Below, piece by piece: positions 4,704-40,063 of a stretch of 64,000 nt of DNA. Position 1 is the first letter of the stretch. Every line of letters begins with the position of its first letter. The stretch is from contig CAKTIO010000003.1 of the NCBI GenBank assembly GCA_934565855.1, positions 62,001 through 126,000 on the forward strand, written 5' to 3'. A model generated the notes under the pieces. The model was not told the DNA's origin, made no database searches, and worked only from the letters and a program-made list of their open reading frames with translations. The DNA is from an uncultured Dysosmobacter sp. (GTDB lineage Bacteria > Bacillota > Clostridia > Oscillospirales > Oscillospiraceae). The translations under genes were made by a program, and so were the position numbers.

Positions 4704-5987
4704 TCAGTCCACCGCGGCAAAACCCTTCTCCAAATCGGCGATAATGTCGTCAATATGCTCTGTACCGATGGACAGGCGGATGGTGTTGGGCTTGATGCCC
4801 TGATCCGCCAGCTCCTCGGGAGTGAGCTGGGAGTGGGTTGTGGTGGCGGGATGGATGACCAGAGACTTTACGTCCGCCACGTTTGCCAGCAGGGAGAAGA
4901 TCTCCAGATGGTCGATGAAGGCGTGGGCTTCCTTCTGACCGCCCTTGATCTCAAAGGTGAAGATGGACGCGCCGCCGTTGGGGAAGTATTTCTCATACAG
5001 GGCGTGGTTCGGGTGGTCTGGCAGGGAGGGATGGTTCACATGCTCCACCTTGGGATGGTGCACCAGATAGTCTACGACCTTCTTGGTGTTCTCCGCGTGG
5101 CGGTCCAGCCGCAGGGACAGCGTTTCCACGCCCTGCAGCAGCAGGAAGGCATTGAAGGGGGAGATGGCTGCGCCGGTGTCCCGCAGCAGAATGGCGCGGA
5201 CGTAGGTGACAAAGGCGGCGGGACCAGCCGCGTCCACGAAGGAGACGCCGTGGTAGCTGGGGTTCGGTTCCGCAATGGGGGCGTATTTACCGCTTGCCTT
5301 CCAGTCAAATTTGCCGGAGTCCACAATGATGCCGCCCAGAGTGGTGCCGTGACCGCCGATAAACTTGGTGGCGGAGTGGACCACGATGTCCGCGCCATGC
5401 TCAATGGGACGGATCAGGTACGGGGTGCCGAAGGTGTTGTCGATCACCAGCGGCAGACCGTGCTTGTGGGCGATGTCGGCAATGGCGTCGATGTCGGGAA
5501 TGTCGCTGTTGGGGTTGCCCAGGGTTTCCAGATAAATGGCTTTGGTGTTGGGCTGAATGGCGTTTTCCACCTCGGCAAGGTCATGGGCATTGACAAAGGT
5601 GGTGGTCACGCCGAAGGCGGGCAGGGTGTGTGCCAGCAGGTTGAAGCTGCCGCCGTAAATGGTCTTCTGCGCCACGATGTGGTCGCCTGCCTGTGCCAGC
5701 GCCTGAATGGTGTAGGTGATGGCGGCTGCGCCGGAGGCGGTCGCCAGCGCGGCAACGCCGCCCTCCAGAGCCGCGATGCGCTTTTCCAGCACATCCTGAG
5801 TGGAGTTGGTGAGACGGCCGTAGATGTTTCCGGCGTCTGCCAGTCCGAACCGGGCAGCGGCGTGAGCGCTGTTGCGGAACACATAGGAGGTGGTCTGGTA
5901 AATGGGAACGGCGCGGGAGTCTGTGGCGGGATCGGGCTGCTCCTGACCGACGTGGAGCTGTAACGTTTCAAAATGATAATTGTTCAT
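4704..5987 (-). CDS. metY: O-acetylhomoserine sulfhydrylase (aminocarboxypropyltransferase)
   Basis: A 427-residue PLP enzyme of the Cys/Met metabolism family that makes homocysteine from O-acetylhomoserine and sulfide in the cytoplasm. HSATKFIGGHGTTLGG at about 204-219 holds the PLP lysine (K208). YGRLTNST (56-63) and the VIDNTFGTPYL block (about 181-191) are typical. Length and the long insert after the PLP lysine favour MetY over MetB or MetC. The start at 5987 is preceded by AGAGGT; an in-frame ATG 18 bases upstream lacks a site. It is expressed through a 300-base leader containing a possible attenuator. Two MetE-like genes lie just upstream on the same strand. Confidence 0.93.
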   Translation of the reverse strand: MNNYHFETLQLHVGQEQPDPATDSRAVPIYQTTSYVFRNSAHAAARFGLADAGNIYGRLTNSTQDVLEKRIAALEGGVAALATASGAAAITYTIQALAQAGDHIVAQKTIYGGSFNLLAHTLPAFGVTTTFVNAHDLAEVENAIQPNTKAIYLETLGNPNSDIPDIDAIADIAHKHGLPLVIDNTFGTPYLIRPIEHGADIVVHSATKFIGGHGTTLGGIIVDSGKFDWKASGKYAPIAEPNPSYHGVSFVDAAGPAAFVTYVRAILLRDTGAAISPFNAFLLLQGVETLSLRLDRHAENTKKVVDYLVHHPKVEHVNHPSLPDHPNHALYEKYFPNGGASIFTFEIKGGQKEAHAFIDHLEIFSLLANVADVKSLVIHPATTTHSQLTPEELADQGIKPNTIRLSIGTEHIDDIIADLEKGFAAVD

Positions 5988-6038
5988 GAGAAATACCTCT
6001 TTCATGTTTTGAATTTAAAAATCAGATATGCAGATACG

Positions 6039-6069
6039 AAAAAAGCCGGGGCGAAATTCGCTCCCGGAC
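6039..6069 (-). terminator. Possible attenuator terminator in metY leader
   Basis: On the minus strand CCGGGAGCG, a 5-base loop and CGCCCCGG form a stem with one bulged A, followed by CTTTTTT. It lies between a leader peptide gene and metY, about 50 bases before the metY start. It therefore ends transcription early unless prevented. Confidence 0.7.
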
Positions 6070-6100
6070 TGTGCATGACCAGATGAAAGGGGCTCTCCCC

Positions 6101-6211
6101 TTACGAAAAATTGAGCGCGCCGAAACGCCCGGTCATACAGACAGCCCGGGAGTACAGCATTCGTCCGCAGCGGAAATTGCTTCTCAGCAGCTTCTGAAAT
6201 CTGCTCTTCAT
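6101..6211 (-). CDS. Putative metY leader peptide (36 aa)
   Basis: A short frame with a strong ribosome site (GAAAGGAG, 7-10 bases before ATG) sits between the metY promoter and a terminator hairpin. The peptide is basic and ends in the unusual run RAVCMTGRFGALNFS; adjacent Cys-Met codons lie at positions 25-26. Codons 19-22 contain CTCCCGG (minus strand, 6152-6146). This is exactly complementary to CCGGGAG of the terminator 5' arm (6067-6061), so the coding RNA can compete with the terminator. The layout is that of a ribosome-controlled attenuator responding to a sulfur amino acid or another translational signal. The function is inferred; no homolog is claimed. Confidence 0.6.
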   Translation of the reverse strand: MKSRFQKLLRSNFRCGRMLYSRAVCMTGRFGALNFS

Positions 6212-6236
6212 CTCGGTTCACGCTCCTTTCTGAAAT

Positions 6237-6255
6237 ACCAATTAAAACGATTGGT
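6237..6255 (-). promoter_or_regulatory. Inverted repeat near metY transcription start
   Basis: ACCAAT-7 bases-ATTGGT is a perfect 6+6 inverted repeat about 10-30 bases downstream of the metY -10 box. The position fits a repressor operator. Confidence 0.45.
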
Positions 6256-6263
6256 TTATTGGG

Positions 6264-6292
6264 ATTATAATACAGGGAATTTTCATTGTCAA
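6264..6292 (-). promoter_or_regulatory. metY leader promoter
   Basis: On the minus strand TTGACA (6292-6287), a 17-base spacer and TATAAT (6269-6264) form a full consensus promoter. It drives the leader peptide and metY. Confidence 0.9.
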
Positions 6293-6397: not shown

Positions 6398-7501
6398 TTA
6401 CAGAAAGTCCTGACAGGACACCAGCAGGTCGATTTTCTTCCACTGGGTCTCCTCGTCAATGCAGTTGCCCTCCTCCACAGAGGCAAAGCCGCACTGGGGA
6501 GACAGGGCGATGTTGTCGCCCACCACGGCTTTCGCCTCCAGATAGCGGCGCTTGATGTCGTCGTGATCTTCCAGCACCGGATTCTTGGTGGAGATCAGAC
6601 CTGCCACAAAGGTGGCGCCGGTGTTCTTCAGCACCGCCCAGGGGTCAAAGGAGCCGGAGCGCTCGTCGTCGTACTCCACAAAGAAGCCGTCGTAGGGGAT
6701 CTGACTGATGATGGGGGCGACGGAGTCATAAAATCCGGCAAACAGGGGATGTCCCTTGAAGTTGCCCTTGCAGAAGTGGTTTGCAATGGTCATGTCGGCG
6801 GGGTGTCCCTCCAGTGCCTTGGTGGAGACCCGGCGGAACCACTCCAGGATCTCTGCCTTCTCATAGCCCAGACCGGCGACCTTTTGCAGAAAGCCCTCGT
6901 CGATCATATAGGTCCAGGAGGTGTCGTCGATCTGGAGATAGCGGCAGCCGTGGTCATACAGGTCCCGGATGGCAGCCTGATACGCTAGGGCGATGTCGTC
7001 GATCAGGGCGTCAATGTTGCTTCCGTAGTAGGGAACCTCCTTGATACCCATTTGCAGATAGTTGTCCACCAAAATCATATTGGGACCGGAGATGCACTTC
7101 TTGGCGGTCACGCCGGGATGCTTGGCAGCCTCTGCCCGCAGGAAGTCATAGGCTTCGATCTCCGGATGGGAGCGGTTGGGATCGTAAGAGACCTTTCCGG
7201 TGATATAGCCCAGCTCAATGTGGTTTACCACGCCGTTGCGCTCCTTGTCCAGATGCTTGGTGGTAAAGCCATCAAATTCCTTCAGCCAGTCCAGATGCCA
7301 CCAGCGGCGGCGGAACTCACCGTCAGTCACAAATTTCAGACCGTGGGCGACCTCCTTCTCCACCAGCTTGGCAATTTCGGCGTTTTCCACCTGCCGCAGC
7401 TGGGAAAGGGTGATCTCCCCGGCGGCGTACTGGGCGCGGGCTTCCTTAATTGGTGCGGGGCGCAGGAAAGAACCTACAATGTCATATTTGATGTGCAGCA
7501 T
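6398..7501 (-). CDS. MetE C-terminal-domain methyltransferase (cobalamin-independent methionine synthase-like)
   Basis: A 367-residue protein equivalent to the catalytic half of cobalamin-independent methionine synthase, like the YxjG/YxjH proteins. The zinc ligands are present: HFC at 242-244, the Glu of VEYDDER near 276, and Cys337 in QCGFAS. It probably methylates homocysteine, using a methyl donor other than the long-tailed folate of full MetE; the donor is unknown. GAGGAGG precedes the ATG. It is the second gene of a two-gene unit with its paralog at 7565-8686, and metY lies downstream, so the two supply and consume homocysteine. Confidence 0.88.
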   Translation of the reverse strand: MLHIKYDIVGSFLRPAPIKEARAQYAAGEITLSQLRQVENAEIAKLVEKEVAHGLKFVTDGEFRRRWWHLDWLKEFDGFTTKHLDKERNGVVNHIELGYITGKVSYDPNRSHPEIEAYDFLRAEAAKHPGVTAKKCISGPNMILVDNYLQMGIKEVPYYGSNIDALIDDIALAYQAAIRDLYDHGCRYLQIDDTSWTYMIDEGFLQKVAGLGYEKAEILEWFRRVSTKALEGHPADMTIANHFCKGNFKGHPLFAGFYDSVAPIISQIPYDGFFVEYDDERSGSFDPWAVLKNTGATFVAGLISTKNPVLEDHDDIKRRYLEAKAVVGDNIALSPQCGFASVEEGNCIDEETQWKKIDLLVSCQDFL

Positions 7502-7564
7502 GAATATTTCCTCCTCTGACCGCCGGGGCGGCGTCTATTCTGTATCGTGCCTGCGGGGCGGGGG

Positions 7565-8686
7565 TTATGCGCCCCAGACCTCCTCGGCAATGCGCTTTAC
7601 CAGCGCCAGCTTTGCCCACTGCTCCTCCTCCGTCAGCTTGTTGCCGATCTCGCAGGAGGCAAAGCCGCACTGGGGACTCAGGCACAGGTTTTCCAGAGGG
7701 ACGTACTGGGCGGCATCCCGGATTCGCGCGATCACAGTCTCCGGGTCTTCCAGCTTGGGAGACTTGGTGGTGATGAGACCCAGAACGACCTTCTTGCCCT
7801 CCGGCACACATGCCAGCGGGGCGAAGCCGCCGGAGCGGGCATCATCAAATTCCAGATAGAAGGCGTCTACATTCTCCTTGGCGAACAGGACCTTGGCAAC
7901 GGCGTCGTAAGCGCCCTCGCTGGCGTAGGTGGAGTGGTAATTGCCCCGGCAGACGTGGGTATTGACGACCATGTCCTCCGGCTTTCCCTCTATGGCAAGG
8001 TTGTTGATCTCCACCAGCTGTTCCTTGATGCGTTCCAGTCCGGCGGCATCCGTTCCGAAAAACACCGGGGCGCGGGAATCGACCAGCATGCCCCAGGAGC
8101 AGTCGTCAAACTGCAGGTTCCGGCAGCCGGCGGCGTACAGGTCGGCAATGACCTTCTGATAGCCCTTGGCAATGTCCTCCGCCAGGTCGGCAATATCACT
8201 GTAATACCGGCTGGTGTTTTTCATGGCAAAGGGCATGATCATCTGCTCCAGGAACTGCGCGGGGGCGGGAATGGTCTGCTTGGCAACGGTGGTCCCGTCC
8301 TCCAGCGCCTTCAGAAATTTGAAGTGCTCCACAAAGGGATGGGTGTCTACGGAGACCCTTCCGGTGAGGTAGGTATCGTCGATCATGGCGGCTTCTCCGT
8401 GGAAGGGCAGACCAGTGTCCGTCCGGCTGTGACCAACGCCCCGGAAGCCCCACATGAAGTCCAGATGCCAGGTGGCGCGGCGGAACTCTCCGTCTGTAAT
8501 GACGTGGTAGCCCGCCTGCTTCTGCTTGGCGACCAGCTCACGGATGGCGCTGTCCTCAACGGCTTTCAGCTCTGCGGAGCCGATGCTTCCGGCGGCGAAG
8601 TCCGCGCGTGCCTGCTTGAGTGCCGCAGGACGCAGAAAGCTGCCTACATAATCATAGCGGAAGGGGGTCTTGAAATGGCTCATCAT
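7565..8686 (-). CDS. MetE C-terminal-domain methyltransferase, paralog
   Basis: A 373-residue paralog of the next gene downstream. The zinc ligands are conserved: HVC at 244-246, the Glu of LEFDDAR near 279, and Cys340 in QCGFAS. The first 65 residues run parallel in the two proteins (YVGSFLRPA, VITDGEFRR), but the middle parts diverge, so they are not a recent duplicate and may use different methyl donors. AGGAG lies six bases before the first of two ATG codons. The gene has its own promoter (8790-8818), downstream of a LysR gene that is a plausible activator. Confidence 0.88.
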   Translation of the reverse strand: MMSHFKTPFRYDYVGSFLRPAALKQARADFAAGSIGSAELKAVEDSAIRELVAKQKQAGYHVITDGEFRRATWHLDFMWGFRGVGHSRTDTGLPFHGEAAMIDDTYLTGRVSVDTHPFVEHFKFLKALEDGTTVAKQTIPAPAQFLEQMIMPFAMKNTSRYYSDIADLAEDIAKGYQKVIADLYAAGCRNLQFDDCSWGMLVDSRAPVFFGTDAAGLERIKEQLVEINNLAIEGKPEDMVVNTHVCRGNYHSTYASEGAYDAVAKVLFAKENVDAFYLEFDDARSGGFAPLACVPEGKKVVLGLITTKSPKLEDPETVIARIRDAAQYVPLENLCLSPQCGFASCEIGNKLTEEEQWAKLALVKRIAEEVWGA

Positions 8687-8896: not shown

Positions 8897-9814
8897 TCAG
8901 AATGCCTCGTGAAGCTGCCGGGTGCGTTTTTCCAGAGCCTGAATATACAGGCTGGCAAACCGGCTGGGTACGGTTTTGTTGTGGGTGATGTAGCCGATCT
9001 CCATAGAGTCGTCCACCTCCAGCGGCACGGCGACAATGTTTTTTCCGTTCAGCTCCTCACTGATGACGCCGCTGCAAATGGTGTAGCCATCCAGTCCGAT
9101 GAGCAGGTTAAACAGCGTTGCCCGGTCCCGGACCACAATATCCTTTTTGCTCTCCCGGGTGCTGAGGATCTCCTCGGAGAAGTAAAAGGAGTTATGCTCT
9201 CCCTGCTCATAGGACAGCCGGGGATAGGGGAACAGGTCCTCCAGCGTCACGGCGGACTTCCCCACCAGCGGGTTGGAGGTGCTGACAAAAACGTGGGGAC
9301 GGGTGCGGAACAGGGAGTGAAAGGTCAGGTCGTGGTCGTGCAGCTCCTTGCGGAGAACAGTCTCGTTGAAGGGGTTCAGATACAGCACACCGATCTCGCT
9401 GCGCAGCCGGGCAACATCCTCAATGATCTCATAGGTCTGGGTCTCCCGGATACGGAAGTCGTATTCCTCGCCGCCGTATTCCCGCAGCAGATCCACAAAC
9501 GCCTCCACTACAAAGGAGTAGTGCTGGGCGGAGACGCAGAACAGATGCTTTCCGGCGGCTTTTCCAGTGTACTTTTCGTCGATCAGGTGGACCTGCTCAA
9601 TGACCTGCCGGGCGTAGCCTAAGAACTCTTCGCCATCGGCAGTCAGCACAACGCCCTTGTTGGTGCGGTTAAAAATGGTGATCCCCAGCTCAGCTTCCAG
9701 CTCCCGGATCGCCGCTGTCAGGCTGGGCTGGGCGAGGAACAGGTCCTTTGCCGCCTCACTGATGGTTCCCTTTGCCGCCACCGCGACCACATATTTTAAT
9801 TGCTGCAATGTCAT
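8897..9814 (-). CDS. LysR family transcriptional regulator (methyltransferase locus)
   Basis: A 305-residue LysR protein. The N-terminal winged helix runs over residues 1-60 (LKYVVAVAAKGTISEAAKDLFLAQPSLTAAIRELEAELG), followed by the substrate-binding fold. It lies immediately upstream of the two MetE-like genes on the same strand, separated by a terminator and a new promoter. It resembles CysB/YxjO-like regulators of sulfur or methionine genes by context only. The co-inducer cannot be read from the sequence. Confidence 0.9.
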   Translation of the reverse strand: MTLQQLKYVVAVAAKGTISEAAKDLFLAQPSLTAAIRELEAELGITIFNRTNKGVVLTADGEEFLGYARQVIEQVHLIDEKYTGKAAGKHLFCVSAQHYSFVVEAFVDLLREYGGEEYDFRIRETQTYEIIEDVARLRSEIGVLYLNPFNETVLRKELHDHDLTFHSLFRTRPHVFVSTSNPLVGKSAVTLEDLFPYPRLSYEQGEHNSFYFSEEILSTRESKKDIVVRDRATLFNLLIGLDGYTICSGVISEELNGKNIVAVPLEVDDSMEIGYITHNKTVPSRFASLYIQALEKRTRQLHEAF

Positions 9815-39942: not shown

Positions 39943-39957
39943 AGCATTGTTAAAACG

Positions 39958-40045
39958 GCAGGGGAGCTTGCGGCAGGCAGGCTGAGAGGAAGGCAGATCC
40001 TTCGACCCTTGAGACCTGATGCGGATAATGCCGCCGGAGGAAGTC
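39958..40045 (+). ncRNA. TPP riboswitch (THI element)
   Basis: The conserved words appear in order: GGGGAGC, GGCTGAGA (39980-39987), CCCTTGAGACCTGA, GGATAAT with the GC-rich pair around it, and GGAGGAAGT at the 3' end. This is the thiamine pyrophosphate sensor. A strong terminator follows 19 bases later, so TPP binding probably ends transcription before thiW. Confidence 0.93.
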
Positions 40046-40063
40046 ATAGGGCTTATGATTTTT

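Follow-up and report, generated by a model that had tools for sequence, protein, structure and literature searches.

The window (the whole stretch of DNA that was analysed, 64,000 nucleotides) contains a metY gene preceded by a short leader open reading frame (ORF). All elements of this locus lie on the minus strand and are as follows.

6264..6292, minus strand: sigma-70-type promoter, TTGACA-17-TATAAT, 12/12 consensus matches
6237..6255, minus strand: inverted repeat ACCAAT-N-ATTGGT, a possible operator, immediately 3' of the -10 box
6223..6229, minus strand: Shine-Dalgarno sequence of the leader, AAAGGAG
6101..6211, minus strand: leader ORF of 36 codons plus stop, product MKSRFQKLLRSNFRCGRMLYSRAVCMTGRFGALNFS
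6158..6190, minus strand: conserved core LLRSNFRCGRM, codons 8-18, residues kept while codons vary synonymously
6167..6169, minus strand: Cys15 codon, proposed Cys sensor, at position -3 relative to Met18
6158..6163, minus strand: CGA-ATG (Arg17-Met18), proposed stall site
6131..6152, minus strand: 5' strand of the predicted antiterminator, codons 20-27 within the leader ORF
6061..6080, minus strand: 3' strand of the predicted antiterminator, overlapping the 5' arm of the terminator
6039..6071, minus strand: intrinsic terminator with a U-run (six T), -15.6 kcal/mol
4704..6005, minus strand: metY, O-acetylhomoserine aminocarboxypropyltransferase (TIGR01326, 631 bits)

The consensus promoter, the 36-residue peptide gene with its strong ribosome site and the six-T terminator between leader and metY, all described in the initial annotation, are present. 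The start of metY is more likely at 5987, downstream of the ribosome site AAAGAGGT (6002-5995). The leader sequence CTCCCGG, which had been assigned to codons 19-22, starts at the third base of codon 20 and reaches into codon 22, and its complementarity to the terminator is longer than had been claimed, the duplex joining 6152-6131 with 6080-6061 by ~20 pairs. The leader peptide had no NCBIfam match, and a protein-database search with one 40-residue relative, in which shared 5-residue words are required, gave no candidate. As annotated, no SAM riboswitch or T-box was found in the window at Rfam gathering thresholds; the sole Rfam match was a TPP riboswitch at 39950-40059 on the plus strand (66.1 bits). 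Upstream of the leader lie two adjoining genes related to B12-independent methionine synthase (6398-8686, minus strand) and a gene for a LysR-type regulator (8897-9814).

Relatives of the locus were collected by scanning one genome per species for metY, and the upstream regions of the best 80 of 577 relatives were compared. A nucleotide pattern for the core (N-F/Y-R-x-G/E-R-M) matched 39 of these 80 best-ranked loci. Every match was in the orientation of metY, at a distance of 65-266 nt upstream of the matched metY start, and a search of both strands of the 80 loci gave no further match. To guard against circularity, the upstream regions were scanned again with a relaxed pattern demanding only R/K/H/N-x-N-F/Y/W-R/K. 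Three of the 41 matches were evidently due to chance (L034 and the second matches of L050 and L067); the other 38 all ran on into R-M, 37 of them with a CGA codon for the Arg. The leader L043 was not caught by the relaxed pattern, and two metY loci with CGAATG in a short ORF that has none of the remaining features (L047, L079) were excluded from the counts.

Matches from metY loci and from whole genomes were combined into an aligned set of 118 well-formed leaders. Fifteen of 133 distinct matches had been dropped because they had no usable start or lay within long ORFs, and matches in which the MGN of the pattern had admitted a Ser codon (L197, L264, L266) were removed; two retained rows look doubtful (L183, the only one with CGG, and L121 with 10 residues). 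The conserved motif, MxxxFxxLLRxNFRxGRM, comprises the N-terminal 18 codons, not the C-terminal residues for which the initial annotation had recommended searching. The pattern itself requires the Asn, both motif Arg and the Met, hence their invariance. It makes no demand on the position two codons ahead of the Asn, which was Arg in 112/118 leaders. With starts chosen by ribosome-site score, Asn was codon 12 and Met codon 18 in 108/118, and 25/118 leaders ended directly after Met18. Six codons are in use for the first motif Arg, four for Gly and two for Asn. The last Arg codon was CGA in 116/118 leaders, a codon that makes up 3.4% of the 1565 Arg codons in the downstream genes. An RNA hairpin was rejected as the cause of this bias: in only a few short leaders (L087, L102, L108 and, by eye, L016) does CGAAUG pair with a strand close to the ribosome site of metY. 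Since CGA is equally fixed in the longer leaders described below, a constraint acting at the codon level is likelier. CGA is reportedly translated poorly by tRNAs that read CGU, CGC and CGA, as seen in a his-leader assay (PMC4046918, in the portion consulted), which would fit a slow point at the leader CGA and gives that codon a putative role.

We sampled the spread of the leader from G001, an Oscillibacter-titled genome that carries locus L001 and whose MetY is 95% identical to that of the window. In the family of G001, 77/300 genomes matched the pattern at 92 places, compared to 5 matches of a reversed-pattern control. At class level, with CGA demanded, 15/196 genomes matched at 16 places (one a Ser-codon match), with 2 control matches, and in the family of a Faecalibacterium genome the count was 13/119 genomes. 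In a held-out set drawn from these class-level and Faecalibacterium-family matches, 24/26 were well-formed; all ten well-formed held-out leaders from a search that allowed any CGN had CGA. In the genus of a Treponema-titled genome the pattern occurred in 9/59 genomes at 11 places. Nine leaders of that genus (L191-L200) keep the peptide, with the last Arg encoded by CGA in 4, CGC in 2 and CGG in 3, in contrast to the Clostridia. Phylum-wide spread was rejected: the 18/398 matching genomes were not above the reversed-pattern controls and mostly had no well-formed leader.

By direct comparison, metY lies behind 93/118 leaders, and the remaining 25 include metY genes missed by the choice of ORF (L008, L155). 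Pfam identified MetQ/NlpA-type lipoproteins behind six leaders (L092, L110, L115, L116, L137, L138) and behind four of the held-out ones (L260, L271, L273, L277); the subset of these proteins also run on NCBIfam scored below its MetQ cut-offs. Other leaders precede genes for family-3 solute-binding proteins (L088, L105, L166), an amino-acid ABC permease (L101), NMT1/SsuA-type binding proteins (L136, L161, L173), cysK (L200), URO-D-type proteins (L180, L196, L199) and, less clearly related, a flavoprotein (L157), a nitroreductase (L181), an AMP-binding protein (L191) and a LanC-like protein (L195), while a family search on the genes behind L144, L184 and L188 gave no family. Most of the downstream genes, not all, point to sulfur amino acids; besides metY they include metQ-like genes, cysK and genes for the transport of sulfonates or amino acids. 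Of the 80 metY loci, 51 were scanned with Rfam, 17 carrying the NFRxGRM leader and 34 lacking it, and no SAM riboswitch or T-box reached the gathering threshold.

Several features accompany individual leaders. In 43/118 cases an inverted repeat, CC[AT]A-N-T[AT]GG, separates the promoter from the leader, with 1.4 expected from shuffles, and the gene behind the leader L269 encodes an Rrf2 regulator scoring below the IscR and CymR cut-offs; repeat and regulator suggest a second, DNA-level control. Four metY loci have tandem leader ORFs (L029, L071, L072, L074), the first Met-rich or Cys/Met-rich and followed by a terminator-like hairpin with a T-run, recognised by eye, and then the NFRxGRM leader. 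The leader L155 continues in frame into metY without a stop, and a cysteine-synthase-like (PALP) gene comes next.

A second type of leader was found in 7 of the 41 metY loci that have no NFRxGRM leader, and in the family of a Butyrivibrio-titled genome (G008). A scan of the G008 family with CGNATG...TCCYGGRC gave many chance matches in long ORFs, so CGA and a CTCCCGG-type context were required, and 23 second-type leaders were fetched from among the matches listed. metY follows 13 of them and a more distant relative (42% identity) follows one. The N-termini of these leaders are variable; Met and Cys codons are then packed at -5 to -2, typically as Met-Cys-Cys (MCC type), just before R(CGA)-M, which the same antiterminator follows. 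Cys occupies -3 in 20/23, -2 in 18/23, +1 in 3, +2 to +5 in none and +6 in 6.

To determine if the antiterminator is kept in relatives, we compared 30 long forms, comprising 24 NFRxGRM leaders (the window included) and 6 second-type leaders. In these a strand CTCCCGGRCN starts 8 nt after the A of the Met codon and pairs with a strand of the terminator 5' arm. The long forms had been selected by an expression requiring a GGGAG-like motif before a T-run; the nearly invariant columns, which include most of the first nine of the duplex, are no evidence because the selection demanded the motif. The evidential weight lies in the varying columns and in swaps of partner strands between leaders. The native duplexes had a mean energy of -40.4 compared to -35.9 (sd 0.76) for swapped partners, a value reached in 0/5000 swaps, while the distal part alone (B with C') was weak (261/5000). 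Judged against 500 shuffles, column A+9 (T-A 14, A-T 8) was paired in 24/30 leaders (shuffled 14.2, maximum 21) and A+11 in 24/30 (shuffled 13.1, maximum 20), both beyond all shuffles. Column A+7 (A-T 11, G-T 9, G-C 9) was paired in 29/30, equal to the shuffled maximum of 29 (mean 26.0), and A+10 showed no covariation in the 30 long forms (19/30, shuffled 19.3). We then examined the 23 second-type leaders of the G008 family as a held-out set, using the 18 in which the terminator strand was found and omitting 5 without a GGGAG-like motif. At A+7 all 18 were paired (G-C 14, A-T 4; shuffled mean 14.9, maximum 17), the duplex energy was reached by 2/3000 swaps, and the other columns of this set showed no covariation. 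Collectively, the swaps, the columns and the held-out set indicate that an antiterminator mutually exclusive with the terminator is kept in relatives. The complementarity of CTCCCGG proposed in the initial annotation recurs beyond the window, and the pairing in relatives supports, on sequence grounds, its reading of the locus as a leader-peptide attenuator in which ribosome position would choose between terminator and antiterminator. That reading had in part been made to depend on conservation of the peptide and its pairing, and relatives keep the peptide core and the pairing.

Short forms end within 0-14 codons of Met18, and no terminator was detected in them. We tested pairing to the metY ribosome site in 54 short forms for which the start and the ribosome site of metY had both been resolved. 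The region around the proposed stall site paired with the metY ribosome site at a mean of -11.9, compared to -9.26 (sd 0.32) for swapped partners (0/2000), whereas a control piece from further upstream in the leader was flat (-7.46 versus -7.38). Without a ribosome, the modelled chance of a free metY ribosome site averaged 0.28; placing Met18 in the P site raised this mean to 0.40, with exposure up by more than 0.15 in 20/54 short forms and down in 2. Exposure was also raised (0.32-0.39) at other ribosome positions and not at GRM alone. The predicted exposure of the metY ribosome site through stalling is modest.

To locate the switch point, the 30 long forms were folded with a ribosome placed codon by codon. 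With the P site at -6 to -3 from Met18 the antiterminator was favoured (0.83-0.88), and with the P site at 0 to +9 the terminator (0.80-0.83; 0.82 with Met18 itself in the P site). At +14 to +19 the antiterminator returned (0.72-0.77), and termination would therefore require the right timing. When CGA occupied the P site and AUG the A site, the outcome depended on the assumed downstream reach of the ribosome: at 15 nt the terminator prevailed (0.60 versus 0.17 for the antiterminator), and at a downstream reach of 11-12 nt the antiterminator (0.72, 0.56). These models place the switch point at the GRM codons, with a wait for Met18 favouring the antiterminator only at a reach of 11-12 nt.

The initial annotation had proposed the adjacent Cys25-Met26 codons of the window as the sensor. 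This was rejected, as the pair is not conserved, close relatives having SRAKNMAG, SRAVSMAG or SRTAPVAG there, and the models put it on the side of the switch that favours termination. When the footprint is included in the fold, a ribosome at Cys25 or Met26 covers the antiterminator, and so the terminator is favoured (0.75 in the window). The C-terminal residues of the leader look constrained as RNA and not as peptide, and Cys15 and Met18 are likelier sensor codons; a ribosome waiting at Cys15 was modelled to give the antiterminator at 0.93 in the window. If starvation stalls switch the gene on, Cys must precede Met18 in long forms and may follow it in short forms. Cys at -3 was found in 21/24 long forms compared to 6/94 other leaders (Fisher 5e-15), two of those six (L002, L161) resembling long forms missed by the pattern. 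Any Cys at +1 to +4 was found in 3/24 long forms compared to 52/94 others (Fisher 1.6e-4). Short-form tails are Cys-rich in many relatives (104/488 tail residues), and the window has no Cys run near its stop; a leader of the window type carries one Cys (-3) and one Met at the stall point compared to the run in the MCC type. A MetY tree built from 85 rows shows 14 changes of architecture, and in 4 supported independent pairs the link between Cys and architecture agreed in 2.8, disagreed in 0.0 and tied in 1.2, which is not significant.

The peptide, the CGA bias, both RNA pairings, the Cys placement and the kind of downstream genes, as established by sequence comparison, lead us to regard a cis-acting, ribosome-mediated leader-peptide sensor of Met and Cys supply as fairly probable. 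We infer its operation as follows. A ribosome would translate the 18-codon module ending in NFRxG-R(CGA)-M and, under shortage of Met (codon 18) or of Cys (codon 15 in the window), would wait at or just before CGA-AUG. The conserved chain and its fixed length suggest a contribution of the nascent peptide to stalling, probably a prolonged wait at R(CGA)-M. In long forms codons 20-27 would stay uncovered by the waiting ribosome and could pair with the terminator's 5' side, allowing readthrough into metY; with Met and Cys plentiful the ribosome would advance and cover these codons, and the terminator would form. In short forms the same stall would cover the strand that otherwise conceals the ribosome site of metY, turning translation on. 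A ribosome held at or before CGA-AUG would thus mean gene on with either output, which matches Met/Cys shortage as the signal. Beyond this, it is possible, although we lean towards doubting it, that the leaders form a new arrest-type family with two joint properties: an NFRxGR chain on the CGA-reading tRNA would make the ribosome hypersensitive to Met-tRNA, such that a single Met codon suffices, and one 18-codon sensor would serve two outputs and a sulfur regulon, with Cys on the side that suits the output.

Several points speak against a supply sensor of this kind: plain codon sensing has no need of a conserved peptide, a ribosome waiting at Met18 with a 15-nt footprint already favours the terminator, and the Treponema-titled genus keeps the peptide but has CGA in only 4/9 leaders. 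The late return of the antiterminator, the modest exposure of the metY ribosome site, the non-significant tree comparison, the missing covariation at A+10, the restriction of covariation to A+7 in the held-out set and the weak B with C' pairing also count against it. In TnaC, Trp acts together with the nascent chain to cause arrest. By analogy, free Met, SAM or Cys could act with the nascent chain to arrest the ribosome at GRM under sulfur plenty, covering the antiterminator and turning metY off. A conserved peptide whose length and last Arg codon are both fixed, and the terminator favoured in long-form models with Met18 in the P site, would both be expected of such an arrest. In short forms, however, it would expose the metY ribosome site and turn the gene on, the wrong direction for feedback repression, and it leaves the Cys placement and the MCC-type leaders without a role; we consider it rather unlikely. 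The MCC-type leaders, with variable N-termini and then Met/Cys runs, would be well explained by plain hungry-codon attenuation of the trp/his type, in which Met/Cys codons and RNA pairing act with no role for the exit tunnel, and the strong RNA pairing agrees with this too. It does not explain why Asn, Arg and Gly are conserved despite two, six and four synonymous codons, why the length is fixed at 18 codons or why 25/118 leaders stop after Met18, and as an account of the family it is unlikely.

Amino-acid conservation with synonymous drift could also mean that the 18-residue core is a small protein acting in trans, its location before sulfur genes reflecting operon membership. The leader peptide peTrpL, reported to act in trans (PMC7298713, in the part consulted), offers a precedent. 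A protein acting in trans would leave unexplained why RNA pairing overlaps the ORF, why CGA is fixed, why Cys is matched to architecture and why the C-terminal tails vary, and this explanation is very improbable. That promoter, short ORF and terminator met by chance in the window and have no function is barely credible. Pattern matches in a single window are cheap (in 4 kb, 8 terminator-like sites versus 3.7 in shuffles, and 5 promoter-like sites versus 1.5), but chance does not account for recurrence in 39/80 best-ranked metY loci and in 77/300 genomes against 5 control matches, nor for the permutation tests. The ribosome-mediated sensor of Met and Cys supply remains our preferred reading.

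A literature search, with subscription papers and preprints mostly outside its coverage, gave no report of an NFRxGRM leader family. Leaders with runs of Cys codons precede cys operons in Mycobacterium and its relatives (PMC1262725, seen in part) and resemble the metY leader in being short ORFs with Cys codons before sulfur genes. They differ in belonging to another phylum and in reportedly lacking conserved attenuator hairpins, and no NFRxGRM core is mentioned in the portion of that source consulted. A histidine leader before hisS-type genes of bacilli was presented, in the part consulted, as the first regular leader outside Proteobacteria and Actinobacteria (PMC2965389). The present leaders suggest that a group of gut bacteria senses Met and Cys by a translated sensor and not by a riboswitch or T-box. 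If both peptide and CGA are needed, codon/tRNA identity, nascent chain and amino-acid supply would be read jointly at one codon, and the family would offer a test bed for wiring one sensor to two expression platforms.

Met and Cys genes of Firmicutes are usually controlled by SAM riboswitches and T-boxes. These share with the present leaders the control of metY- and metQ-type genes, and no covariance-model match to them was found at the scanned loci. Leader-peptide attenuation itself has long been known. The trp and his attenuators likewise combine a short leader ORF and its regulatory codons with an antiterminator and a terminator that exclude each other, the switch being set by ribosome position, and a leader ORF with its ribosome site lies upstream of a terminator in the window and the long forms, not in the short forms. 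In contrast to those attenuators, the metY leader has a conserved nascent peptide of fixed length and a near-invariant CGA, its antiterminator 5' strand lies within the ORF just after the stall site, and in many relatives no terminator is seen, the leader pairing instead with the ribosome site. TnaC, ErmCL and SpeFL likewise have conserved residues at a fixed distance from the stall codon, and in the metY leader the residues near the proposed stall codon are conserved beyond codon identity, in the relaxed scan as well. The metY leader differs from these three in that the Met and Cys codons at its stall point suggest that tRNA supply is sensed, with arrest itself a putative step. In erm translational attenuation a stall unmasks a downstream ribosome site, as we propose for the short forms.
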